From the NCBI RefSeq assembly GCF_019931275.1, contig NZ_JAIOTY010000001.1, forward strand, positions 806,001 to 870,000: a stretch of DNA of 64,000 nucleotides, written 5' to 3'. The notes beneath the pieces are model-generated. The model did not search any database and had not been told where the DNA came from. It was given only the letters and a program-made list of their open reading frames with translations. Every line of letters begins with the position of its first letter. Position 1 is the first letter of the stretch. The position numbers and the translations under genes were made by a program. Shown here piece by piece: positions 3,620 through 28,352 of the stretch. Source of the DNA: Nitratidesulfovibrio sp. SRB-5. Its GTDB lineage: Bacteria; Desulfobacterota; Desulfovibrionia; Desulfovibrionales; Desulfovibrionaceae.

Positions 3620-3734
3620 ACTGGCTCCGTGTTCGGCCCGATGGGCCGGTTGTCGGGTGCGTGGGGTGCCCGCAGGCGCATGGCGGCGGCACACGTGGTG
3701 CGTATTACGGGCAAGTTTCGGAAAAGTGAAGGGC

Positions 3735-3755
3735 GGAGCGGGTAATACCCGCTCC
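3735..3755. repeat. Palindrome, copy 1 of the argJ-secA spacer
   Basis: A perfect inverted repeat whose core is GCGGGTAATACCCGC, flanked by GGA/TCC. A near-identical core recurs at 3896-3929 in the same 338-bp spacer. The two copies bracket a third, unrelated hairpin at 3771-3795. Confidence 0.6.
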
Positions 3756-3770
3756 GGTCCATGACCGATG

Positions 3771-3795
3771 GCAAGCCCCGCAAACCGGGGCTTGC
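3771..3795 (-). terminator. Hairpin between secA and argJ, possible terminator
   Basis: A 10-bp perfect stem (GCAAGCCCCG, 3771-3780, with 3786-3795) and a 5-nt loop. It lies downstream of secA on the minus strand but has no clear T tract, so termination is uncertain. Confidence 0.4.
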
Positions 3796-3895
3796 AAAGG
3801 CACGCCCGCACGATCGTTTGCAGGCGGCAGTGCATGCCACCTGCGCCCGTGCGGCGTCGTCGGGACAGTCGGAAGGCCCGTCTGCCCCAACGGGC

Positions 3896-3929
3896 AGGGG
3901 CGGAACGGGTAATACCCGCTCCGCCCCTG
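3896..3929 (-). terminator. Palindrome copy 2, likely secA 3' hairpin
   Basis: An extended inverted repeat about 28 nt past the secA stop, with arms CAGGGGCGGA.CGGGT and their near-complement around a TAATA-type centre. It shares its core with the palindrome at 3735-3755. It could serve as a transcript end for secA, though there is no T run. Confidence 0.45.
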
Positions 3930-3957
3930 ATTATGTGCGACTGTGTCGTACGGCGCG

Positions 3958-6492
<2,535 letters not shown>

Positions 6493-6782
6493 TCCTTCTC
6501 CCGAATGGTGGGGGCGGTGGGAACGCGGGGCGGCGATGGCCGGTTGCCGCGCATAAGGCCCCGCGCGGGGCGGGGCTGGCGATGGCCGCAGGGCCGACGG
6601 ACCGGTCTGCCGCGTGGCGTGGGGCGCGGTTTTCGCGAAGACCCGGCGAACGCCGGGGGCGGAACCTGCGCGCGGCACGCGGTGCCGGGCGGTTCGGCTG
6701 CACCTGCGGGTGGTGCGCGCGGCGCGCTTTGCGCGGCAGGGCATGAAGGCATGTGCCGCGCGGCGGGTGGCCGAACCCATCT
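6493..6782 (-). other. Long secA leader, no gene
   Basis: About 290 nt lie between the candidate secA promoter and the secA start. The sequence is GC-rich with several short complementary segments. Many bacteria control secA from its leader, but I see no SecM-like arrest peptide here. Confidence 0.35.
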
Positions 6783-6811
6783 CAGATAAGTCAAATACTT
6801 GCGGTTGGCAA
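6783..6811 (-). promoter_or_regulatory. Candidate sigma70 promoter of secA
   Basis: On the minus strand TTGCCA (6811-6806) is separated by exactly 17 bp from TATCTG (6788-6783), within a locally AT-rich patch. Pattern match only; it implies a leader of about 280 nt. Confidence 0.4.
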
Positions 6812-6928
6812 TGCGCGCACCTTTAATTCGCACGCATTGCTCCGGAATGACAGGAAATCGTGACGCAGATGCGCGCGGTGGACAATGCCGGTGGGGGGGC
6901 GGGCGGCAGCGCGATGCGCGAACGGCAT

Positions 6929-6980
6929 GCAAAACGGACGGGCGGCGGCTTCGGACATGACGTGCCGATGCCGCCGCCCG
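6929..6980 (-). terminator. Intrinsic terminator of the GlcD/GlcF-type pair
   Basis: An 11-bp perfect GC stem (6939-6949 with 6970-6980) lies 40 nt past the stop of the iron-sulfur subunit gene. On the minus strand it is followed by TCCGTTTTGC. Confidence 0.6.
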
Positions 6981-7019
6981 CGAGGATGCACGGAAAGGGC
7001 GATGCGGACGGGGGCCGAA

Positions 7020-8444
7020 CTAGGTGCGCGGCACGCCCACCACGTCCAGCCAGTGCAGCACGCGCACATCGGGGGGGGCGGTTGCCGCCAGTTGCAGGGT
7101 GCAGCCGCTGCATCCCGTAAGCACGGTGATGCCCGGCTGTCGTGTTGCATTGGCCGTTGCGGCGGGTGCGTCTGGCGCGGCTGGCGTGGCAGGGGTGGAC
7201 GCGGCGGCGGATGTGGCGGAAGCCGCATCCGGCGAGGAGGGCGCGCGGGACGAGGAGGGCGCGGAAGTGGACGCGGCGGCGCGTTCCGGCAGCAGCGCGT
7301 TCCAGCAGGCATCGGCCACGGTGCGGGAAAGGTCGGGCGCGGCCAGTTGCAGCACGCCGCCCATGCCGCAGCAGTTCACTCCGCCGGGGGCGCGCATGCG
7401 GCTGCCCAGCAGGGCGCGCAGCCACACGGCATCCGGGTCCGTGTCCTTGCGGTGGCAGGGCTGGTGGTAACGCACGGGCGCGGGGGCGTCTGCCTCCGGT
7501 TGGGCCGGGGCATCGGCGGTGACGCGGAACGCGGCGTCCCCCCACAGGGTGGAAAGGGGGCGCAGGGCTGCGGTCCAGGCCTCGCGTTCGCCGTCCTGCC
7601 AGTCAAGGTCGGCGTGGCCGGGGTATTCGGACAGGCCGTGGTGGCAGGTGGCGCAAAAGGTGACCAGCAGCGGGCGACCGGCGGCGCGCCAGGCGTCCAG
7701 ATTGCGGGCGCGGGCCGTGGCGGCGGCATCGGGAATGCCCGCATGCTCCAGGGTGGAGCCGCAGCAGGTGAAGGAATCCTCATCGCCCTGGGCGGGCGCT
7801 GGGTGGCCCAGCCAGCGCAGCAGGGCGCGGGCCGTGTCCTTCCAGCGGGGGCGGATGCGCCGGGCGGTGCACCCGGCAAAGAGCATGGCCGGCGGACGGG
7901 CAGCCTCGCCGCGTGGTGCCTCCTGCGTTGCCTCATGCGTCACCTGGTCCGCCACTATCCACGGGGCGGGCGGCGGCGGGGGCAGCATGGCGGCGGCGGA
8001 CCGCAGCATGTGCTGCACGCCCTCCGGCACCACCGCGCCGGGCACCACGCGGGTCATTTGGGCCAGCGCGGGCCACAGCAGGCGGCCATGCTCTATCCAT
8101 TGCTTCCACAGCCACTGCTGCCAGTTGGGGTGCCTGGCGCGCAGGGCGGCCAGCGCCTGCGGCACCGACAGCCCCTGCGGGCAGATGGTCGCGCAGCGCC
8201 CGCAGGACAGGCAGCGGTCGGCCAGTTCGCGCGCTGGCTTCAGGCTCAGGCGTCCCGGCTCGTCGCGCAGGGCGGCGAACACCAGGTGCTTGGCGCGGGG
8301 AGAAAGTTCTTCCTGCCCGGTGGTCAGAAAGGCGGGGCACACGGCGGTGCACTGGCCGCACAGCAGGCAGGCGCGGGGCTGCCCGGCGGTGTCGCCCGGC
8401 GTGCCGCCGTTGGTCGTGGATATGGAGGTGGTGTCCGTGCTCAT
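7020..8444 (-). CDS. GlcF-type iron-sulfur subunit of a 2-hydroxyacid (lactate/glycolate) oxidase
   Basis: A 474-residue protein with two N-terminal 4Fe-4S motifs, CLLCGQCTAVCP (about residues 26-37) and CLSCGRCATICP (about 74-85). CCG-type cysteine segments follow: CTARR...TCCGS, FCATCHHG, YHQPCH and NCCGMGG. This is the architecture of GlcF and of the iron-sulfur partner of D-lactate dehydrogenases. A low-complexity Ala/Ser/Pro/Thr insertion of about 40 residues sits near residue 400, before the last CSGC motif. The gene starts 12 nt past the stop of the flavoprotein gene, so the two form an operon and probably a complex passing electrons from the flavin to the membrane pool. Lactate is the most likely substrate in this group, but glycolate is not excluded. 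Confidence 0.85.
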   Translation of the reverse strand: MSTDTTSISTTNGGTPGDTAGQPRACLLCGQCTAVCPAFLTTGQEELSPRAKHLVFAALRDEPGRLSLKPARELADRCLSCGRCATICPQGLSVPQALAALRARHPNWQQWLWKQWIEHGRLLWPALAQMTRVVPGAVVPEGVQHMLRSAAAMLPPPPPAPWIVADQVTHEATQEAPRGEAARPPAMLFAGCTARRIRPRWKDTARALLRWLGHPAPAQGDEDSFTCCGSTLEHAGIPDAAATARARNLDAWRAAGRPLLVTFCATCHHGLSEYPGHADLDWQDGEREAWTAALRPLSTLWGDAAFRVTADAPAQPEADAPAPVRYHQPCHRKDTDPDAVWLRALLGSRMRAPGGVNCCGMGGVLQLAAPDLSRTVADACWNALLPERAAASTSAPSSSRAPSSPDAASATSAAASTPATPAAPDAPAATANATRQPGITVLTGCSGCTLQLAATAPPDVRVLHWLDVVGVPRT

Positions 8445-19439: not shown

Positions 19440-20996
19440 TCAGCGCTTCTTGCTCTTGTTGCGCTGCTGCTTGCGCAGCTGCTTCTTCTTCTTGAGCGCG
19501 GTCTTGGACATGGGGTTGGGGCCGCCGGGCGCGCCTTCGCCGTCACCCGTGCCGGGCATTCCCGGCATTCCCGGCATGCCGCCGAGCCCGCCCATGCCGC
19601 CCATTCCGGGCAGTCCACCCATTCCTCCAAGGCCCCCCATGCCGCCCATTCCGGGCAGCTTGGGCATGCGCGGCATCTTTCCGGCCTGCGCGGGTTTGCC
19701 CCCGCCCATGACCTTTTTCATCATTCCGCGCATCTGCTCGAAATTGTTGATCAGCTGATTCACGTCCTGCACGGTGGTGCCGGAACCCATGGCAATGCGC
19801 TGGCGGCGGCTGCCATTCAGCACCTTGGGGTTGCGGCGTTCCTGCATGGTCATGGAATTGATGATGGCCTCTACCCGGCCCATCTCCTTTTCCGGCACGT
19901 TCATCTCGCCCAGCTTTTCGCGCAGCGCGCCCATGCCGGGAATCAGCTTCAGGATGCCTTCCAGCGAGCCCAGCTTCTTCAGCCGGCGCATCTGGGTGCG
20001 GAAGTCCTCCAGGTCGAACTCCGCCTTCTGGAACTTGCGGCCCAGTTCCTCTGCTTCTTCGGCCTTGATGGTGGACTGCGCCTTCTCGATGAGCGTCATC
20101 ATGTCGCCCATGCCAAGAATGCGGCCCGCCACGCGGTCGGGGTGGAAGACCTCGATGTCCGAGAGCTTCTCGCCCATGCCCACGAACTTCACCGGCTTGC
20201 CGGTGACAGAGCGGATGGACAGGGCCGCGCCGCCGCGGGCATCGCCGTCCATCTTGGTGAGCACGACGCCGGAAATATCGAGCGCGGCGTTGAACGATTC
20301 GGCAACCGTCACCGCGTCCTGGCCGGTCATGGCGTCGGCCACGAACAGGATTTCCTGCGGCTCGACGCGACCCTTGATGGAGACCAGCTCCTGCATCAGG
20401 GTTTCGTCGATGTGCAGGCGGCCCGCGGTGTCCACGATGACCACGTTGCACTGCTTTTCGCGTGCGTCTTCCACGGCGGCCACGGCGATGTCCACCGGGT
20501 TCATGCCGGGGGCCGAGGGATAGGCCGGGATGTCGAGTTGTTTGGCCAGCGTGTGCAACTGGTCGATGGCCGCCGGGCGGTACACGTCGGCGGGCACCAG
20601 GTACGGGCGCATCTTCTGCTTGCGCAGCAGGTTGGCAATCTTGGCAGACGACGTGGTCTTGCCCGAGCCCTGCAGGCCCACCATCATGATGACGTAGGGC
20701 TGCCTGCCGCGCAGGTCCAGCTGGGTGGTGCCGCCGCCCAGCAGTTCGACCAGTTCGTCATGGACGATCTTCACCACCTGCTGGGCAGGGGTGAGGCTTT
20801 TCAGCACGTCCTGGCCGAGACACCGTTCGCGCACGCGCTCGATGAAGTCGCGGACGACCTTGAAGTTGACGTCGGCTTCCAGCAGCGCCAGACGCACCTC
20901 GCGAAGGCCATCCTGGATGTTGGCTTCGTCAAGGCGGCCCGTGCCGGTGAACTTCCGGAAAACTCCTGTCAGTCTGTCCGAGAGACTATCGAACAT
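19440..20996 (-). CDS. ffh: Signal recognition particle GTPase Ffh
   Basis: A 518-residue Ffh, which binds signal peptides together with 4.5S RNA and docks at FtsY. The N domain begins [16 protein letters not shown]. The G domain has the P-loop [38 protein letters not shown] and [14 protein letters not shown]. The M domain contains the RNA-binding helix with [14 protein letters not shown]. It ends in a tail of about 45 residues made almost only of Gly, Met, Leu and Pro (GMGG/LGG repeats, DNA 19540-19670), then a Lys/Arg-rich end. It starts the cluster that continues into rpsP. Confidence 0.97.
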
Positions 20997-21119
20997 GCAT
21001 ACCCCGTCCGGCGAATATCGTAAGAGGAGGTTCGGTACATGGGTTTGGGGGGGAAGTCAAGGATGTGGGTGGTGGGAAGGGAGGGGATGGGGAGGGGGAA
21101 AGTGATGTTCGTTTGGGGT

Positions 21120-21300
21120 AGTGCGCGGTTGGAGGCGGTTTCTACGAAGACACGCCAGCGCTGTTGTCCGCCCTCGATTTCGTTATGTCTCCGACGGGTG
21201 GGAGATGGGGAGTGCGTGGTTGGAGACTGCTTCTACGATGACAGTTGTGCCCTCTTGGTCCCCCCCGATTTCGTTATGTCTCCGGCAGGCAAGGGGCCGC
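21120..21300 (+). repeat. Dispersed repeat: two direct copies, 91-bp period
   Basis: Two copies begin with AGTGCGYGGTTGGAG at 21120 and 21211. Both continue through TTCTACGA to ATTTCGTTATGTCTCCG. The plus-strand frame reads FYED.....LDFVMSP-like in both copies. A third direct copy lies at 34143-34219, and an inverted one is at 21307-21380. Confidence 0.85.
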
Positions 21301-21340
21301 CGCTCTGCGGCCCCTTGCCTGCCGGAGACATAACGAAATC
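21267..21340. repeat. Perfect 34-bp inverted repeat with 6-nt loop
   Basis: The left arm 21267-21300 is exactly complementary to 21307-21340, with loop CGCTCT. The arms contain the conserved end of the dispersed repeat (ATTTCGTTATGTCTCCGGC...). The transcript would form a very stable cruciform or hairpin in either direction. Confidence 0.95.
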
Positions 21341-21423
21341 GAGAGTGAACAAAAGGGCAGTACTGTCTTCGTTGAAGCCGGGTGCGAGCGAGCGGGGCCT
21401 CTTCCGTTCCTGTCCATCAAAAT

Positions 21424-21461
21424 AAAGAGAGGCCGCACCCATCAGGGCACGGCCTCTCTTT
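21424..21461 (-). terminator. Terminator of the aminotransferase gene
   Basis: A 12-bp perfect stem (21424-21435 with 21450-21461) lies 36 nt past the stop codon. On the minus strand it is followed by TTTATTTTG; T-rich flanks on both sides make it potentially bidirectional. Confidence 0.85.
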
Positions 21462-21496
21462 TCTTGCTCTTAATCCGAGTCCATCGGCGTCAGCCG

Positions 21497-22681
21497 CTAC
21501 CCCTTGATGGCCCTTCTGAACCCTTCCTCCGACCTTGCAATCACATCCTCGCCCACGCAGAAGGTCAGCCGGAAGTGCCCCGGCCCGCCGAAGCCGGAAC
21601 CCGGAACGGCTAGCACCTTCTCTTCCATCAGCCGGTTGACGAACTTCACGTCGTCGCCGCCCGGTGCCTTGGGAAAGAAGTAGAACGCCCCGGCGGGCAT
21701 CTGGAATTCGTACCCCGCATCTCGCAGGATGCGCGCCATCATGTCGCGGCGGCGGGCGTAGATGCCCGCGTCCACCTGCGAACCCAGCGCCTTGGCCATC
21801 AGGTGCTGGCCCACGGCGGGCGGGTTCACGAAGCCGAGGATGCGGTTGGTCAGCAGCAGCGCGGCCGTCAGCGTGGACCGGCCTTCCATCAGCGGCGAAA
21901 GGGCGATGTAACCCAGTCGCTCGCCCGCCAGCGAAAGGTTCTTGGAGAACGAGCTGATCACCACCGCGTGCTGGTACAGGGGCAGCAGCGACGGCACCTC
22001 GTCGCCGTCATAGGACAGGAAGCGGTAGGGCTCGTCCGAGATCAGGAAGATGGGGCGCCCGTGCTTTTGCGATGCGCGGCCCAGCGCCGCCGCAAGCTCG
22101 GTCAGTTCCGCCCGGTTGTAGATGACTCCGGTGGGGTTGTTGGGCGAGTTGACGATGAGCGCCCGTGTCCTGGGGCCGATGGCGGCCTCGATGGCGGCCA
22201 CGTCCAGCGCGAAGGTGTCGGGTTTCGAGGGCACGGTGCGGAAGGTGCCGCCGTGGTTGGCCACGTAGAAGCCGTATTCCACGAAGAACGGCGACACGGC
22301 CAGCACCTCGTCGCCGGGCTCCAGCACCGCGCGCAGGAAGGCGTTCAGCCCGCCCGCCGCGCCGCAGGTGAGCACCACGTCGTCGGCGGCCAGGTCCACG
22401 CCCTGCTCGGCGGAAAGGTGCGCGGCCAGCTTGGCGCGGGCCCACGGGTAGCCGCCGTTGGGCATGTAGCCGAAGGTGAACGGCTCGCCCGCGTGGTCGG
22501 CCAGTTCGCGCAGGGCCTGGCCCACGGCGGGCGGGGCAGGCAGGTCGGGGTTGCCCAGGCTGAAGTCGCACACGGCCTCTTCGCCGTACTGCTGCTTGAG
22601 GGCTATGCCCGCCTCGAACATCTTGCGGATCCACGACGAACGTTCAAGGTACCCGGAAATCTGCTGGGATATGAGCGACAT
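21497..22681 (-). CDS. Class I/II PLP-dependent aminotransferase
   Basis: A 394-residue fold-type I aminotransferase (aspartate/aromatic aminotransferase superfamily). Visible: CDFSLGNPDLPAPP, YMPNGGYPWARAKLA, VVLTCGAAGGLNAFLRAVLEPGDEVLAVSPFFVEY, the cofactor motif NSPNNPTGVIYN, FLISDEPYRFL, the Schiff-base lysine in SSFSKNLSLAGERLGY, and the substrate-carboxylate arginine in GHFRLTFC. It transfers an amino group between amino and keto acids; substrate unknown. The start at 22681 matches the family N-terminus. It lies downstream of the chorismate-mutase/EPSPS-like gene, which hints at aromatic amino acids, but a hairpin separates them. Confidence 0.9.
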   Translation of the reverse strand: MSLISQQISGYLERSSWIRKMFEAGIALKQQYGEEAVCDFSLGNPDLPAPPAVGQALRELADHAGEPFTFGYMPNGGYPWARAKLAAHLSAEQGVDLAADDVVLTCGAAGGLNAFLRAVLEPGDEVLAVSPFFVEYGFYVANHGGTFRTVPSKPDTFALDVAAIEAAIGPRTRALIVNSPNNPTGVIYNRAELTELAAALGRASQKHGRPIFLISDEPYRFLSYDGDEVPSLLPLYQHAVVISSFSKNLSLAGERLGYIALSPLMEGRSTLTAALLLTNRILGFVNPPAVGQHLMAKALGSQVDAGIYARRRDMMARILRDAGYEFQMPAGAFYFFPKAPGGDDVKFVNRLMEEKVLAVPGSGFGGPGHFRLTFCVGEDVIARSEEGFRRAIKG

Positions 22682-22752
22682 GTTGCGACCTCGGCGGGTT
22701 GTCGGTGGTGCGGGCGGCCCTCGCAAAGCAGGCGGCGGGCCGCAAACGGCGC

Positions 22753-22785
22753 GGGGGAGGCGACGCGGCGCGCGTCGCCTCCCCC
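22753..22785 (-). terminator. Strong hairpin between the small coiled-coil ORF and the aminotransferase
   Basis: A 15-bp perfect GC stem (22753-22767 with 22771-22785) with a 3-nt loop, just past the stop of the small ORF. It has no T tract. Confidence 0.5.
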
Positions 22786-22798
22786 GGCGGGTCATGAT

Positions 22799-23065
22799 CT
22801 AGAACATGGAGTTGGCGTCCAGGCGCAGGCGGTTGATGCGCACCCGCCGCAGTTCCTTCTGCACTTCCAGTTGCAGCTTGCGCTGGCGCGCCTGGTGGAT
22901 TTCCTGCGCGAAGCAGATTCCCTCGTCGGGGCGCTCCGTCTCGCACAGGTGGCGCACGGTGGCCTCGCAGGCGCGGCGTTCCTCTTCGAGCAGGGCCATC
23001 TGGGCCTCCAGCTCGGGGATGCTATTCGGCAATGATGCGTCGTCGAGCGGGCTTGGCACCGTCAT
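22799..23065 (-). CDS. Small coiled-coil protein overlapping the EPSPS-like gene
   Basis: An 88-residue acidic/basic helical protein, no recognised family. Residues 17-75 are heptad-rich (ELEAQMALLEEERRACEATV; LQLEVQKELRRVRINRLRL) and predict one long helix or coiled coil. The start at 23065 has AGGAG 8 nt upstream and lies inside the 3' end of the chorismate-mutase/EPSPS-like gene (44-bp overlap), so the two are translationally coupled. A small helical partner of the upstream enzyme is possible but unproven. Confidence 0.65.
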   Translation of the reverse strand: MTVPSPLDDASLPNSIPELEAQMALLEEERRACEATVRHLCETERPDEGICFAQEIHQARQRKLQLEVQKELRRVRINRLRLDANSMF

Positions 23066-24926
23066 CCTTCTGCTCCTTGGGCTTGCGCGGGGCGTTATCG
23101 GGCGAGGGCAGGCCGTTGTACAGCGCCCAGAAGCCGGGCATCAGCTCGGTCACGTTGCCGGGGTTGGACAGGTGCAGGCCGGGGCGCAGCAGCGCGCCCA
23201 GCGCCAGCCCGAACGTCCAGGCCGCCGTGGGGCTGGCCCAGGGCGAACCGTTGGCCGGGGCCTTGGAACCGGCGGCCACCACGGAGCGCAGCACCGGCTG
23301 CCCAGCCTCGGTGGCCAGGGCGAAGCCCAGCTGCTCGGCAAAGCTTTCAGCCGTCACCGTGTCCACCCCTTCGGGCAGCAGCGGCGCGGGCACCACGTCC
23401 ACCTTGGCCGCGCGGGCCGTGGCGGCGGCCAGGGCCAGCGCCAGCGGGGCGTAGTCGAGGGGCAGGGCCGATGCGTCCAGCGGGGCGGTGGGCGCGGGCG
23501 CGGCCTGCACCGAAGGCTTCATGGCGGGTTTGGCCGCCACGCCCTTGGCGTCGGCGGTGACCATGAGGCCCGTGGCGCGCAGCAGGTCCAGCACCTGCCC
23601 GGCGTGGGGCTGCGTGGCGTCCCAGGTGCCGGAAAGGCGGGCCTCGCCGCTGGTGAAGGCGGGCATGGCCAGCATCACGGCGGACACCAGGGGGTCGATG
23701 CCCATGGCAGGGACCTTGGGCACGCGCAGCTTGGCGGCGGGCACGGGGGTGACGCTCACAGACAGCGCGTCGTCGCCGGTTTCGCCCAGCGTGGCCACCT
23801 TGGCCTTGCAGGTGTGCAGCAGGGGCAGCACTTCCGCGATGCAGGCGGCGGCGTCGGGGTGGGCGGCGCAGTGCAGGGTGATGGGGGCGTTCCAGAACGG
23901 GGCGGCCAGCAGCAGCGCGGTCAGCGCGTCGGCGGGCAGTTCCGCCGGGATGCGCACCTCGTCGGGCAGCACGCCGGAACATTCCAGACGCACCGGCAGG
24001 CCGGACGACTTGGGCACCACGGGGGCCAGACGCGCGCCGAGCAGCGGCAGGAACTGGCGCAGCGCGGTGGTGTCGGCCATCTTCAGGGCCGGGCCGCCGG
24101 TGAACTTGACCTTGCCGACGGCGCCAAGGGACAACGCGGCCAGCAGGTGGAAATTGAGGGAATCGTCACCCGCGTAGATGACCTTGTCGGTGAATTCCAG
24201 CGGGTCGCCGCCCTTGCTGCGCACCAGCGAATCGCCTTCCCACGACAGATGGGCACCCGCCTGGTTCAACGCCTTCACGGCGTCGATCAGGTGGTCGCCC
24301 AGCATGGCGCCCTCTATGTCGGCCTCGGCACCGGCGGCGGCGGCCAGGGCCACCCAGAGCCGGGTGGGGCGGACGGCCAGCGGTCCATATATATTGATGG
24401 AGACGGGGCGGCGCGGCGGGGCAAGGTTGAAACTGGGGCGCACTTCGCCTTCGGGGCTGCGCTCCTGCATTTCCACTTCCTGCAACAGTGCGAACAGCTG
24501 GCGCACGAAGCGCGGGTCGCGGCTGACGCGCGCGGCGGCGCTTTCCCAGGCCTCGCGCAGCTGCTTTTCGGCCACGGTGTCGCGCGCGGGGGCGGATGAC
24601 ACGCCGGGACGGCGGCTGCCGCGCACCTTCTGGAAGAGGCGGGCGCGCTTGGCCAGCAGGCGGATGATGTCGCGGTCGAGCTCCATGATGGATTCGACCA
24701 GCGACTGGCCGGAAGCGGGGCGGCCCTGACCGGGGCGGGGCGAGCGGGCGGGCCTGTCGGACCGGTCGGGCCGGTCGGATCGCTCAGGTCTGTCGGCTCG
24801 GTCGGTCCGGTCGGAGCGCTCGGGCCGGTCGGATCGGGCAGGGCGCTCGGCCCGTTCAAAGCGTTCCGGCTGGGACGCGGCATCCCGTTCCGGACGGCCG
24901 GACGGGGAATCGTTGGTGTCGTGCAT
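23022..24926 (-). CDS. Chorismate-mutase-like / EPSP-synthase-like fusion protein, probably degenerate
   Basis: A 634-residue protein in three parts. Residues 1-68 are low complexity (Arg/Asp/Ser/Pro, RSDRPERSDRTDR-like), encoded by the 9-bp repeats at 24750-24848. Residues about 70-150 look like an AroQ-type chorismate mutase helix bundle (SIMELDRDIIRLLAKRARLF). The rest follows an EPSP synthase (AroA) fold: INIYGPLAVRPTRLWVALAAAAG, GDHLIDAVKALNQAGA, GDDSLNFHLLAALSLGAVG, LPADALTALLLAAP and LSNPGNVTELMPGF. Yet the usual AroA catalytic signatures (PGDKS.S.R, GN.GT, RP(M), the late DHR) are not recognisable, and Ser replaces the first conserved Arg of AroQ. It is probably not a normal shikimate enzyme. 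The start at 24926 is the first Met with family-like sequence and has only a weak ribosome-binding site. Confidence 0.75.
   Translation of the reverse strand: MHDTNDSPSGRPERDAASQPERFERAERPARSDRPERSDRTDRADRPERSDRPDRSDRPARSPRPGQGRPASGQSLVESIMELDRDIIRLLAKRARLFQKVRGSRRPGVSSAPARDTVAEKQLREAWESAAARVSRDPRFVRQLFALLQEVEMQERSPEGEVRPSFNLAPPRRPVSINIYGPLAVRPTRLWVALAAAAGAEADIEGAMLGDHLIDAVKALNQAGAHLSWEGDSLVRSKGGDPLEFTDKVIYAGDDSLNFHLLAALSLGAVGKVKFTGGPALKMADTTALRQFLPLLGARLAPVVPKSSGLPVRLECSGVLPDEVRIPAELPADALTALLLAAPFWNAPITLHCAAHPDAAACIAEVLPLLHTCKAKVATLGETGDDALSVSVTPVPAAKLRVPKVPAMGIDPLVSAVMLAMPAFTSGEARLSGTWDATQPHAGQVLDLLRATGLMVTADAKGVAAKPAMKPSVQAAPAPTAPLDASALPLDYAPLALALAAATARAAKVDVVPAPLLPEGVDTVTAESFAEQLGFALATEAGQPVLRSVVAAGSKAPANGSPWASPTAAWTFGLALGALLRPGLHLSNPGNVTELMPGFWALYNGLPSPDNAPRKPKEQKDDGAKPARRRIIAE
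24750..24848. repeat. 9-bp tandem repeat in the 5' end of the EPSPS-like gene
   Basis: Eleven units of the form GGNCCGGTC / GGATCGCTC. On the minus strand they encode alternating Asp-Arg-Pro/Ser-Asp-Arg triplets, a charged disordered N-terminus. Confidence 0.9.
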
Positions 24927-25595
24927 GGGGAAACCTGTGTTGGGATGGTGATGTGGCGTACCACCTAGCCCGAAACGTGCGCTTCGGCAAGTGGCAAGGC
25001 CCGTGCGGAACTGGCGATGCGTGGGGCAGAGCGGCAAGCGGACTGGCGGAAGGGCTTCGGATCGGGTGGGCGTCTGGTGCCCGCAGGGAAGGCCGCTACC
25101 CTGCATTGGCGCGTGTGCCCACATCCGACGATGGGGGCGCTGTCACCAGCTTGAGACAATGTGCACATGCCAGGCAGTGGCGGGGTTTCTGGTGTATTTG
25201 TTTTTATTTCGGTGCGTTGTGTGTAGGGTGCGTGGGCGCGCTCGCGAAGCAGGGCGTATGCGGGAAGCCCCTTTGGTGACATTTTCGCGCCATGCGCATG
25301 TCGTCACAAGGGTGTCGCAAGGGTGTCGCGGCGGCATGTAACTGCTTGTTTGAACAGTCATAGCCGGGGTGCCCGGTTCCGGATCGCCCTAATCCTTCAT
25401 TGCCGGAAACCCGTTCCGGGCGGTCTTTCGTGAAAAAATGGATAAAAGGCCGCGAAACGACGGCAGACGGGCTTGAAACTCTGCCTGCTTCACGATACAC
25501 CGCAAGGGGCAGTGCGGCGGGCTCGACCCCCATGGGCGGCGCAACGTGGCGAAATATCCCGGTAAACCACGCAAAAACAAGCCCATGGCGTATCC

Positions 25596-25614
25596 TTGTG
25601 AAGGGTTTGAACAA
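25596..25614 (+). promoter_or_regulatory. Upstream Rex-like half-site pair
   Basis: TTGTGAA matches exactly the left half of the Rex consensus (TTGTGAA-N4-TTCACAA). After 5 bp, TGAACAA is a poor right half. It lies directly upstream of the apr -35 box and may be a secondary or degenerate operator. Confidence 0.35.
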
Positions 25615-25619
25615 GTTGC

Positions 25620-25648
25620 TTGACACTATCGGGCCACATTGTTAAATC
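25620..25648 (+). promoter_or_regulatory. Candidate sigma70 promoter of the apr operon
   Basis: A perfect -35 TTGACA (25620-25625), a 17-bp spacer and TAAATC as -10 (25643-25648). Transcription would start near 25655, leaving a leader of about 150 nt before aprB. The perfect -35 fits the very high expression known for APS reductase in sulfate reducers. Confidence 0.6.
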
Positions 25649-25656
25649 AGTCACAA
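25639..25656 (+). promoter_or_regulatory. Rex-type operator over the apr -10 region
   Basis: TTGTTAAATCAGTCACAA matches the Rex consensus TTGTGAA-N4-TTCACAA at 12 of 14 specified positions. It covers the -10 box and the expected start point, the right place for repression. Rex senses NADH/NAD+, and regulon reconstructions in Desulfovibrionales have linked it to sulfate-reduction genes. Binding here is inferred. Confidence 0.6.
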
Positions 25657-25693
25657 GCAACACGATCTGGCCGCTAGAGGGCGATGCAGTCCG

Positions 25694-25721
25694 AAAAGGC
25701 AGGCTCCCGAACCTGCTTTTT
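25694..25721 (+). terminator. Terminator-like hairpin in the aprBA leader
   Basis: A 10-bp stem (25694-25703 with 25712-25721, one G-U pair) with an 8-nt loop; the descending arm ends in TTTTT. It sits between the promoter and aprB, so it would end or attenuate most transcripts unless antiterminated. Confidence 0.55.
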
Positions 25722-25808
25722 CAGCCTCCATCGACATGATGGTGGGATCCGCATGGGTTGAGGCTGACAAGGTATAACCCCTTAATTCGCTGAGTTGGAG
25801 GATAAGGT

Positions 25809-26312
25809 ATGCCGACTTATGTTGATCCGTCCAAGTGTGACGGCTGCAAGGGTGGCGAAAAGACCGCTTGCATGTACATCTGCCCCAACGACCTCATGAT
25901 CCTCGACCCCGAGGCCATGAAGGCCTACAACCAGGAGCCCGAAGCCTGCTGGGAATGCTACTCCTGCGTGAAGATCTGCCCCCAGGGCGCCATCACGGCC
26001 CGCCCCTACGCCGACTTCGCGCCCATGGGCGGCACCTGCATCCCCATGCGCTCGGCCGACTCCATCATGTGGACCGTCAAGTTCCGCAACGGGAATGTGA
26101 AGCGCTTCAAGTTCCCCATTCGTACCACCCCTGAAGGCTCCATCAAGCCCTTCGACGGCAAGCCCGAAGCTGGCGACCTGGAAAATGAACTGCTGTTCAC
26201 CGAAACGGCGCTCATCGCTCCCAAGGTTGCCCTGGGCGAAAAGGCCGCGATCAGCGACTCTGATCTGAGCCAGTGCTGGTATGAAACCGGTTGCGAAGGC
26301 GGCAACCGCTAG
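25809..26312 (+). CDS. aprB: Adenylylsulfate reductase beta subunit (AprB)
   Basis: A 167-residue iron-sulfur subunit of dissimilatory APS reductase, which reduces adenosine 5'-phosphosulfate to sulfite and AMP in the cytoplasm. It begins MPTYVDPSKCDGCKGGEKTA and carries the two cluster motifs CDGC.....TACMYICP and CWECYSCVKICPQGAI, giving two 4Fe-4S clusters that feed electrons to the flavin of AprA. The C-terminal tail that wraps around AprA is present. GGAGG lies 8 nt before the ATG. Codon use is biased to C-ending codons, as expected for a very highly expressed gene. It precedes aprA by 42 bp. Confidence 0.98.
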   Translation: MPTYVDPSKCDGCKGGEKTACMYICPNDLMILDPEAMKAYNQEPEACWECYSCVKICPQGAITARPYADFAPMGGTCIPMRSADSIMWTVKFRNGNVKRFKFPIRTTPEGSIKPFDGKPEAGDLENELLFTETALIAPKVALGEKAAISDSDLSQCWYETGCEGGNR

Positions 26313-26354
26313 TTCGGAACCCACCGCAAGTCATTGCGATAAGGAGATTTAGCT

Positions 26355-28352
26355 ATGCCGATGATTCCCGTTAAGGAACAGCCGAAGGGTGTGGCCATCG
26401 CCGATCCCATCGTGAAGGAACATGACGTCGACATTCTCATCGTCGGCGGTGGTATGGGCTCTTGCGGCACCGCGTTCGAAGTCGTTCGCTGGGCCGACAA
26501 GTACGCTCCCGACCTGAAGATCATGCTGCTGGACAAGGCCACCCTTGAGCGTTCCGGCGCCGTTGCGCAGGGCCTGTCCGCCATCAACACGTACCTCGGC
26601 AAGAACCCTTGCGACGACTACGTGCGCATGGTCCGCACCGACCTCATGGGCCTCGTGCGCGAAGACCTTATCTTCGACCTTGGCCGTCACGTTGACGACT
26701 CCGTGCACCTGTTCGAAGAGTGGGGCCTGCCCTGCTGGATCAAGGACGAACACGGCCACAACCTCGACGGCGCCCAGGCCAAGGCCGCCGGCAAGTCGCT
26801 GCGCGCCGGCGACGACCCCGTCCGCTCCGGCCGCTGGCAGATCATGATCAACGGTGAATCGTACAAGTGCATCGTGGCCGAAGCGGCCAAGAACGCCCTT
26901 GGCGAAGCCCGCATCATGGAACGCATTTTCATCGTGAAGCTGCTGCTTGACGCCAACACCGACAACCGCATCGCTGGCGCCGTGGGCTTCAACCTGCGCG
27001 ACAACGAAGTGCACATCTTCCGTACCAACGCGATGATGGTTGCCTGCGGCGGCGCGGTGAACGTGTACAAGCCCCGCTCCACTGGTGAAGGCATGGGCCG
27101 CGCTTGGTACCCCGTGTGGAACGCCGGTTCGACCTACACCATGTGTGCCCAGGTCGGCGCCGAAATGACCATGATGGAAAACCGCTTCGTGCCCGCCCGC
27201 TTCAAGGACGGTTACGGCCCGGTCGGCGCGTGGTTCCTGCTGTTCAAGGCGAAGGCCACCAACTACAAGGGTGAAGACTACTGCGCCACCAACCGCGCGA
27301 TGCTGAAGCCCTACGAAGATCGCGGCTACGCCAAGGGTCACGTCATTCCGACCTGCCTGCGTAACCACATGATGCTTCGCGAAATGCGCGAAGGTCGCGG
27401 TCCCATCTACATGGACACCAAGACCGCCCTGCAGAACACCTTCGCCACCATGACCCCCGAACAGCAGAAGCACCTCGAGTCCGAAGCCTGGGAAGACTTC
27501 CTCGACATGTGCGTGGGTCAGGCCAACCTGTGGGCGTCCATGAACATCCAGCCCGAAGAACGCGGCTCGGAAATCATGCCCACCGAACCTTACCTGCTCG
27601 GCTCGCACTCCGGCTGCTGCGGTATCTGGGTGTCCGGTCCGGACGAAGCCTGGGTGCCCGAAGACTACAAGGTGCGCGCTGACAACGGCAAGGTCTACAA
27701 CCGCATGACCACCGTGATGGGCCTGTGGACCTGCGCCGACGGCGTGGGCGCTTCCGGCCACAAGTTCTCCTCCGGTTCGCACGCCGAAGGCCGTATCTGC
27801 GGCAAGCAGATGGTCCGCTGGTGCATCGACCACAAGGACTTCAAGCCCGCCATCAAGGAAACGGCCGAAGAGCTGAAGCAGCTCATCTACCGTCCTTACT
27901 ACAACTACCTGGCTGGCAAGGACGCCTCCACCGATCCGGTGGTGAACCCGACCTACATCAGCCCCAAGAACTTCATGATGCGCCTCGTGAAGTGCACCGA
28001 CGAATACGGCGGTGGTTGCGGTACCTACTACACCACCTCCGCTGCGGCGCTGGACACCGGCTTCGCGCTCATGGACATGATGGAAGAAGACTCCCTCAAG
28101 CTGGCCGCTCGCGACCTGCACGAACTGCTGCGCTGCTGGGAAAACTACCACCGTCTGTGGACCGTGCGCCTGCACATGCAGCACATCCGCTTCCGTGAAG
28201 AGTCCCGTTACCCCGGCTTCTACTACCGAGCCGACTTCATGGGCCTCGACGACTCCAAGTGGAAGTGCTTCGTGAACTCGAAGCATGATCCCAAGAAGGG
28301 CGAAACGAAGATCTTCAAGAAGCCCTACTACCAGATCATTCCCACCGAATAG
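26355..28352 (+). CDS. aprA: Adenylylsulfate reductase alpha subunit (AprA)
   Basis: A 665-residue flavoprotein subunit of APS reductase, of the fumarate reductase/succinate dehydrogenase flavoprotein superfamily. The dinucleotide motif is in DILIVGGGMGSCGTAFE, and LLDKATLERSGAVAQGLSAIN follows. Also visible: SGRWQIMINGESYK, the active-site region RFVPARFKDGYGPVGAWFLLFKAK, LGSHSGCCGIWVSGPDEAW and the C-terminal helical domain ending FKKPYYQIIPTE. FAD attacks the sulfur of APS to form an adduct that releases AMP and sulfite. The pair makes an AprBA heterodimer that receives electrons from Qmo, encoded directly downstream. Confidence 0.99.
   Translation: MPMIPVKEQPKGVAIADPIVKEHDVDILIVGGGMGSCGTAFEVVRWADKYAPDLKIMLLDKATLERSGAVAQGLSAINTYLGKNPCDDYVRMVRTDLMGLVREDLIFDLGRHVDDSVHLFEEWGLPCWIKDEHGHNLDGAQAKAAGKSLRAGDDPVRSGRWQIMINGESYKCIVAEAAKNALGEARIMERIFIVKLLLDANTDNRIAGAVGFNLRDNEVHIFRTNAMMVACGGAVNVYKPRSTGEGMGRAWYPVWNAGSTYTMCAQVGAEMTMMENRFVPARFKDGYGPVGAWFLLFKAKATNYKGEDYCATNRAMLKPYEDRGYAKGHVIPTCLRNHMMLREMREGRGPIYMDTKTALQNTFATMTPEQQKHLESEAWEDFLDMCVGQANLWASMNIQPEERGSEIMPTEPYLLGSHSGCCGIWVSGPDEAWVPEDYKVRADNGKVYNRMTTVMGLWTCADGVGASGHKFSSGSHAEGRICGKQMVRWCIDHKDFKPAIKETAEELKQLIYRPYYNYLAGKDASTDPVVNPTYISPKNFMMRLVKCTDEYGGGCGTYYTTSAAALDTGFALMDMMEEDSLKLAARDLHELLRCWENYHRLWTVRLHMQHIRFREESRYPGFYYRADFMGLDDSKWKCFVNSKHDPKKGETKIFKKPYYQIIPTE

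Follow-up and report, generated by a model that had tools for sequence, protein, structure and literature searches.

A gene in the window, which is the whole 64,000-nucleotide stretch of Nitratidesulfovibrio sp. SRB-5 DNA analysed here, encodes a protein that joins an AroQ chorismate-mutase-like domain to an EPSP-synthase-like domain. This fusion is likely to be an order-level pseudoenzyme that has been recast as a non-catalytic binding or scaffold protein outside aromatic biosynthesis. Judged from its sequence, it appears to be an enzyme homologue that is kept by selection without the catalytic residues, and it is unlikely to work as either an EPSP synthase or a chorismate mutase. The fusion event, which joined an AroQ-type mutase domain to an EPSP synthase, would have taken place in a common ancestor of the Desulfovibrionales. 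The EPSP-synthase active site would then have been lost, together with about half of the mutase site, and the fold would have been retained as a binding or scaffold protein. The first-pass annotation of this DNA had proposed either a pseudoenzyme or an enzyme with a new substrate. The first proposal is supported by active-site loss in all 50 orthologues, by a canonical aroA elsewhere in the genome and by the retention of the fusion in the relative G018. The set of 50 sequences is composed of 49 orthologues and the window copy; duplicates and partial copies were omitted, and four sequences come from one genus.

The fusion gene is found on the minus strand at 23022-24926, where the open reading frame, supported by the orthologues, runs from an ATG at 24926 to a stop at 23022 and encodes 634 aa. 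A further in-frame ATG upstream of 24926 gives a 700-aa alternative; in the orthologue L012, the longest ATG-initiated reading starts at the ATG equivalent to that of the 634-aa form. From the N-terminus, the protein is composed of an R/D-rich tail (residues 1-69; 24720-24926), the AroQ chorismate-mutase-like domain (residues 76-151; 24474-24701), the EPSP-synthase-like domain that lacks active-site residues (residues 163-610; 23097-24440) and a C-terminal basic motif, RRRI (residues 628-631; 23034-23045), all on the minus strand. The two domains are assigned from structure and residue tables, with the Pfam CM_2 score added for the first and hhalign for the second. The basic motif is conserved, and residues 628, 629 and 630 are K or R in 44/50, 49/50 and 50/50 orthologues, respectively. 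There was no Rfam match in 20900-26400, no Sigma-70-like promoter in a simple scan, no plasmid match and no PHROGs match for the fusion.

The N-terminal tail is encoded by repeats, as described in the first-pass annotation, with a tandem array at 24745-24837. Its length and composition differ between orthologues, and its dN/dS is 0.18-0.42 between the window copy and five same-genus orthologues. Repeats of the RPDRSDRPDR type recur in further proteins encoded by this genome (loci L165, L166 and L167), which by reading of their sequences are two sensor-kinase-like proteins and one PSP1-like protein; a fourth repeat locus, L168, holds no clear gene. The repeat is apparently a genome-level low-complexity expansion. 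An RNA-binding role for the R/D-rich tail was considered and dropped because repeats of the same kind are found in these sensor-kinase-like and PSP1-like proteins.

The folds of both domains had been named in the first-pass annotation, and both are upheld by family models and structure prediction. Pfam CM_2 (PF01817) scores 28.4 bits against the window protein, above its cut-off of 27, in support of the AroQ helix-bundle outline, and it matches 33 of the 50 orthologues at E <= 0.001. NCBIfam aroA (TIGR01356) gives the window protein only 30.4 bits, far below the family cut-off of 287, and matches 40/50 orthologues at E <= 0.001. Pfam EPSP_synthase (PF00275) does not match the window protein and matches 27/50 orthologues at the same threshold. 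An AlphaFold2 model of residues 70-634, made with the 50-sequence alignment, has a mean pLDDT of 90.1 and a pTM of 0.84. Its best matches in the PDB are EPSP synthases, with a Foldseek E of about 1e-20. Comparison by VIA with the M. tuberculosis EPSPS (2bjb) gave a Z of 31.1 and an rmsd of 3.2 over 406 residues, and MurA chains are at Z 24-25 among the matches listed. Alignment of the fusion profile with 22 canonical AroAs by hhalign gave a probability of 100 and an E of 1.5e-52 over 422 columns. As modelled, the two-domain fold of EPSP synthase is clearly predicted to be present in full.

Modelled alone, the mutase domain has a pLDDT of 83.9. The best 13 rows of its structural comparison are all AroQ-family chains, at Z 4.7-6.5, which is modest for a helical bundle. 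The top row is the mutase-like domain of the B. subtilis DAHP synthase (5gmu; Z 6.5), tied with other AroQ rows. No match at E <= 0.001 came from Foldseek with the mutase domain alone. At the level of sequence, a profile of the domain reaches E. coli AroQ (1ecm) among PDB sequences at E 1.3e-6, in a search where a designed coiled coil outscores 1ecm through repeated weak matches.

The catalytic set of AroQ, which we take to be R11', R28, K39, D48, R51, E52, S84 and Q88, is retained in part, and roughly half of the mutase site is gone. The equivalents of R28 and E52 are each found in 50/50 orthologues, and the equivalent of K39 is R or K in 44/50. The letter of E. coli AroQ is kept at R11 in 3/50, at R51 in 2/50, at S84 in 9/50 and at Q88 in 1/50; the R11 position is Val in the window copy. 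The D48 equivalent is Asp in 35/50, and two live mutases in the alignment are also without it. The claim in the first-pass annotation that the AroQ signatures, including the first Arg, cannot be recognised is correct for that Arg and too broad for the site as a whole. The surviving half-site, R94, R/K105 and E120, may have a structural role, or a small acid may bind there. Because three pocket residues survive, ligand binding and even weak mutase activity are conceivable for this domain.

With both domains derived from the pathway and three mutase pocket positions kept, the fusion could be a regulator of aromatic biosynthesis. The half-site would then sense chorismate or prephenate, or the fusion would activate AroA or PheA, like some DAHP-synthase mutase-like domains; the top structural row from the B. 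subtilis DAHP synthase, tied as it is, fits such a role. We hold this to be doubtful, and the evidence against it comes from G018 and from the gene neighbourhoods. G018, a draft assembly of 110 contigs that is 98% complete, carries the fusion at E 1.6e-163. It has no match for aroC (chorismate synthase) or for aroB', the DHQS-type dehydroquinate synthase of the window genome, and against the aroA model it gives only a MurA-level match of 85 bits. G453, a genus mate that is 54% complete, also carries the fusion and has no match for chorismate synthase or DHQS. The gene absences in G018 are strong, but they are not final because the assembly is a draft. Since G018 keeps the fusion without aroB', aroC or an AroA-level match, the role of the fusion appears to be independent of chorismate synthesis. 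Moreover, no relative of the aroB', pheA, aroA or tyrA of the window genome was found at E <= 1e-3 in the window or in 40 other fusion loci.

In G018 (loci L019, L067 and L163), a lineage of the Desulfovibrionaceae, chorismate biosynthesis thus seems to be gone, and external aromatic amino acids are probably needed. In G052, aroA is present and aroC has no match, which is probably an assembly gap.

The first-pass annotation had named, as one outcome that would refute it, the fusion being the only aroA of its genome. This is not the case, as pheA, aroA and tyrA are clustered on another contig of the window genome, which also has a murA-type gene. Canonical aroA scores above the cut-off in 53/59 genomes of the order and in 48/50 of those of good quality; the aroA tally of 50/50 in the good genomes includes the MurA-level match of G018, and the match of G050 is partial. 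D. vulgaris Miyazaki F is, we assume, of the same genus as the window genome by current naming. We infer that its gene DvMF_1748 is aroA. In the accessible part of a transposon study of this strain, chorismate-pathway genes that include DvMF_1748 appear essential (PMC5764234). The D. vulgaris cluster is given as aroA'-aroB'-aroQ-pheA-aroF-tyrA in the available portion of another paper, which mentions no second EPSPS (PMC1173090). A search of the open-access literature returned nothing on the fusion; the parts of PMC5701242 and PMC4162548 that could be consulted deal with the canonical cluster, except for an entry on a 'chorismate mutase related enzyme', which is unrelated.

The EPSP-synthase active site is almost wholly lost in all 50 orthologues. 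Twenty active-site positions that are invariant in all 22 canonical AroAs were compared with the 50 orthologues by profile alignment; the selection of these positions and their roles are assumed, and their invariance was measured. In E. coli AroA, the residues that bind PEP and shikimate-3-phosphate are presumably K22, S23, R27, R124, Q171, D313, E341, R344, R386 and K411. Each orthologue retains 0-3 of the 20 active-site residues (mean 1.3, or 6.6%; n=50), with 11 orthologues keeping none, 19 one, 13 two and seven three. At 37 other AroA-invariant positions, retention is 36%, compared with the 6.6% at the active site. The equivalents of E. coli K22, R27, R100, R124, Q171, Y200 and H385 are kept in 0/50 orthologues. 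The loss of AroA motifs reported in the first-pass annotation thus stands position by position, with the qualification that D491 and E519 of the window copy align with the catalytic D313 and E341, a match found across the family in 9/50 and 12/50 orthologues. At the level of the profile alignment, the catalytic residues do not appear to fall into place.

A control for this loss is provided by MurA, which uses another acceptor. Of 11 MurA control rows, L174 was in the wrong frame, and each of the 10 correctly read MurAs keeps 8/20 of the AroA active-site residues. The MurA and AroA profiles align at an E of 3.4e-19 (with only 11 rows), which places MurA more distant from AroA than the fusion is. 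The active-site residues common to MurA and AroA are not retained in the fusion (mean 1.3/20, compared with 8). Because MurA keeps 8/20 with a different acceptor, an altered substrate alone does not account for the loss in the fusion.

The charges that the family conserves are also placed differently from those of AroA. A position was scored as conserved when charged in >= 80% of orthologues. Six such positions are in the mutase domain and 14 are outside it. Nine of the 14 belong to the N-terminal EPSPS half (D211, D/E215, K218, K248, K274, K282, R299, R313 and E315), and three to the C-terminal tail (R628-R630). In the C-terminal EPSPS half, only D411 (canonical D242) and D484 are conserved as charged, and among the 50 orthologues there is no newly conserved charged residue in this half of the barrel. 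Canonical AroA has 21 positions that are charged in >= 80%, spread over both halves. R299 and E315 are invariant in 50/50 orthologues. From this pattern, the charges on the N-terminal half would form a binding face and not a site in the cleft.

These results bear on the other proposal of the first-pass annotation, an enzyme with a new substrate. Such a protein would be an enolpyruvyl transferase, or a relative of one, with a rebuilt active site. An intact fold under purifying selection within the genus, the new invariant residues R299 and E315, and the alignment of D491 and E519 of the window copy with catalytic residues are what such an enzyme could be expected to display. We nevertheless judge it unlikely. 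MurA changed the acceptor, kept the chemistry and still has 8/20 of the residues, compared with a mean of 1.3 in the fusion; the D313 and E341 equivalents are confined to a minority of orthologues; and a site between the halves would have no newly conserved charge to draw on in the C-terminal half.

The reading that we prefer is a binding or scaffold protein. AroQ enzymes are dimers, and by analogy the AroQ-like bundle probably dimerises the fusion. The charged set on the N-terminal half and the RRRI motif, which is carried on a linker, would probably bind a partner macromolecule.

The neighbourhood of the fusion was compared in 41 loci, the window and 40 others. The gene calls in these neighbourhoods are crude (the fusion was missed in 3/41 loci), several loci end at contig ends, and neighbour identities were taken from one member each. 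In the window, aprB (Pfam APS-reductase_C) and aprA (named by position and size) are on the opposite strand at 25809-28352; the other neighbours are an aminotransferase and a small coiled-coil-like gene at the fusion 3' end. The aprA cluster, with aprA assigned by position, is found in 25 of the 41 loci; 23 loci have aconitase and 22 have a PpiD/SurA-like gene. An aminotransferase, whose specificity is unassigned, is close to the fusion at four loci besides the window. A role in sulfate reduction, suggested by the vicinity of aprBA, is not supported as a general one, since the aprA cluster is limited to those 25 loci and the fusion is kept elsewhere too.

The small coiled-coil-like gene (22799-23065, minus strand), identified as an ORF and by neighbourhood comparison, encodes 88 aa and overlaps the fusion 3' end by 44 nt. 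This overlap is seen in 20/21 loci in which both genes were called. The small protein (22802-23065 in the window) has a conserved pattern around ED..GI.FA.EIF..Q..KLRL..E...R..KI.RL, and its window copy has no Pfam match at E <= 0.1. The gene is present in 50/59 Desulfovibrionales genomes (own included). The pair is usual and not obligatory, because 46 of the 59 genomes have both the fusion and the small gene, eight have the fusion only, four have the small gene only and one has neither; an obligate partnership of the two proteins was therefore rejected. Where the fusion is gone, the small gene persists beside aconitase or aldehyde dehydrogenase (named by reading). At L127 of G016 (3722-7379 on the reversed strand), genes that by reading are sat, the gene of the small coiled-coil protein and aconitase follow one another, and the fusion is missing between them. 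It looks as though the fusion has been cleanly removed from the customary order.

The half-site and the aconitase gene could point to a sensor of small acids, and not an aromatic-pathway protein, in which the half-site would bind a di- or tricarboxylate and the charged face and RRRI would signal to a housekeeping partner, perhaps one linked to aconitase. Malate is present in the solved structures of two AroQ chains from the structural comparison, 2vkl and 3rmi. Aconitase is near the fusion in 23/41 loci, although in the window it does not adjoin the fusion. We regard this sensor as distinctly improbable.

The fusion is widespread in its order. It was found in 54/59 Desulfovibrionales genomes searched (own included) and in 47/50 of those that are >= 90% complete. 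G012 is not counted as a carrier because its only match is the repeat tail; with it, the counts would be 55/59 and 48/50. In a 395-genome sample of the phylum, the fusion occurs, among the matches listed, in 14 genomes of the window's family (own included), and three genomes of that family lack it (G271, G335 and G449). None of the listed matches outside the family begins before profile position 70, so that they leave out most of the mutase domain or the whole of it; 16 of these matches were read, and all are canonical AroAs. In all, the fusion was not found in the near-complete genomes G012, G016, G032, G271, G335 and G449; four of these six genomes gave a match that is their own canonical AroA. 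The absence of the fusion from several near-complete genomes means that it is dispensable in some.

Within the genus, the fusion is under purifying selection. Between the window copy and five same-genus orthologues, dN/dS ranges over 0.04-0.28 in the mutase part and 0.09-0.28 in the EPSPS part. Across the 50 sequences, five positions are invariant, and identity to the window protein is 22-47% for orthologues outside the genus. It is very improbable that the fusion is a decaying, functionless paralogue heading for loss, as several near-complete relatives without it and the divergence of the orthologues might suggest, given that dN/dS is well under 1 in every comparison made, that 47/50 good genomes and even the 1.5 Mb genome G013 carry the fusion, that five positions are invariant in 50/50, and that the listed matches that span both domains have no internal stops. 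A tree was built by a quick method from 50 rows, namely 18 of the 50 fusions, 14 AroAs of the order, 16 AroAs of the phylum selected as the best scorers against the profile of the fusion itself, the AroA of E. coli and a single MurA. In it, the 18 fusions form one clade (SH-aLRT 100), separate from the AroA clade of the order and on a very long stem (3.85). A recent duplication of the order's aroA as the origin of the fusion is not supported by this tree, though the stem is long.

If our reading is true, the fusion is a clear example of two metabolic folds that were joined, lost their catalytic equipment and were retained across a bacterial order to do something else. In practice, fusion genes may be mistaken for a second EPSP synthase or chorismate mutase and thus blur pathway reconstruction. 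The order also offers a natural test, since G018 seems to be without the pathway and has the fusion, while G012, G016 and G032 lost the fusion and keep the pathway.

Among known systems, EPSP synthase (AroA) shares with the fusion the whole two-domain fold and full-length sequence homology; the fusion differs in holding 0-3/20 active-site residues and in scoring far under the family cut-off. AroQ chorismate mutase is alike in the three-helix outline and in R28, K39 (as R/K) and E52, whereas the fusion differs at R11, R51, S84 and Q88 and has the EPSP-synthase fold attached. MurA has the same fold and keeps 8/20 of the AroA active-site residues, compared with 0-3 in the fusion. The AdoMetDC prozyme of T. 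brucei is a dead paralogue beside a live enzyme (PMC5201418), as the fusion appears to be. The prozyme activates its live enzyme as described there (PMC5201418), whereas there is no sign that the fusion acts on AroA, and it is kept without an AroA-level match. TyrA-AroF (EPSPS) and AroQ-PheA are also fusions of aromatic-pathway domains, and the enzymes in them are live or recently broken (PMC1173090). The same paper raises the possibility that P. syringae has, in a broken EPSPS domain, a future regulatory domain of a new kind (PMC1173090). Compared with TyrA-AroF and AroQ-PheA, the fusion described here appears to be dead order-wide.
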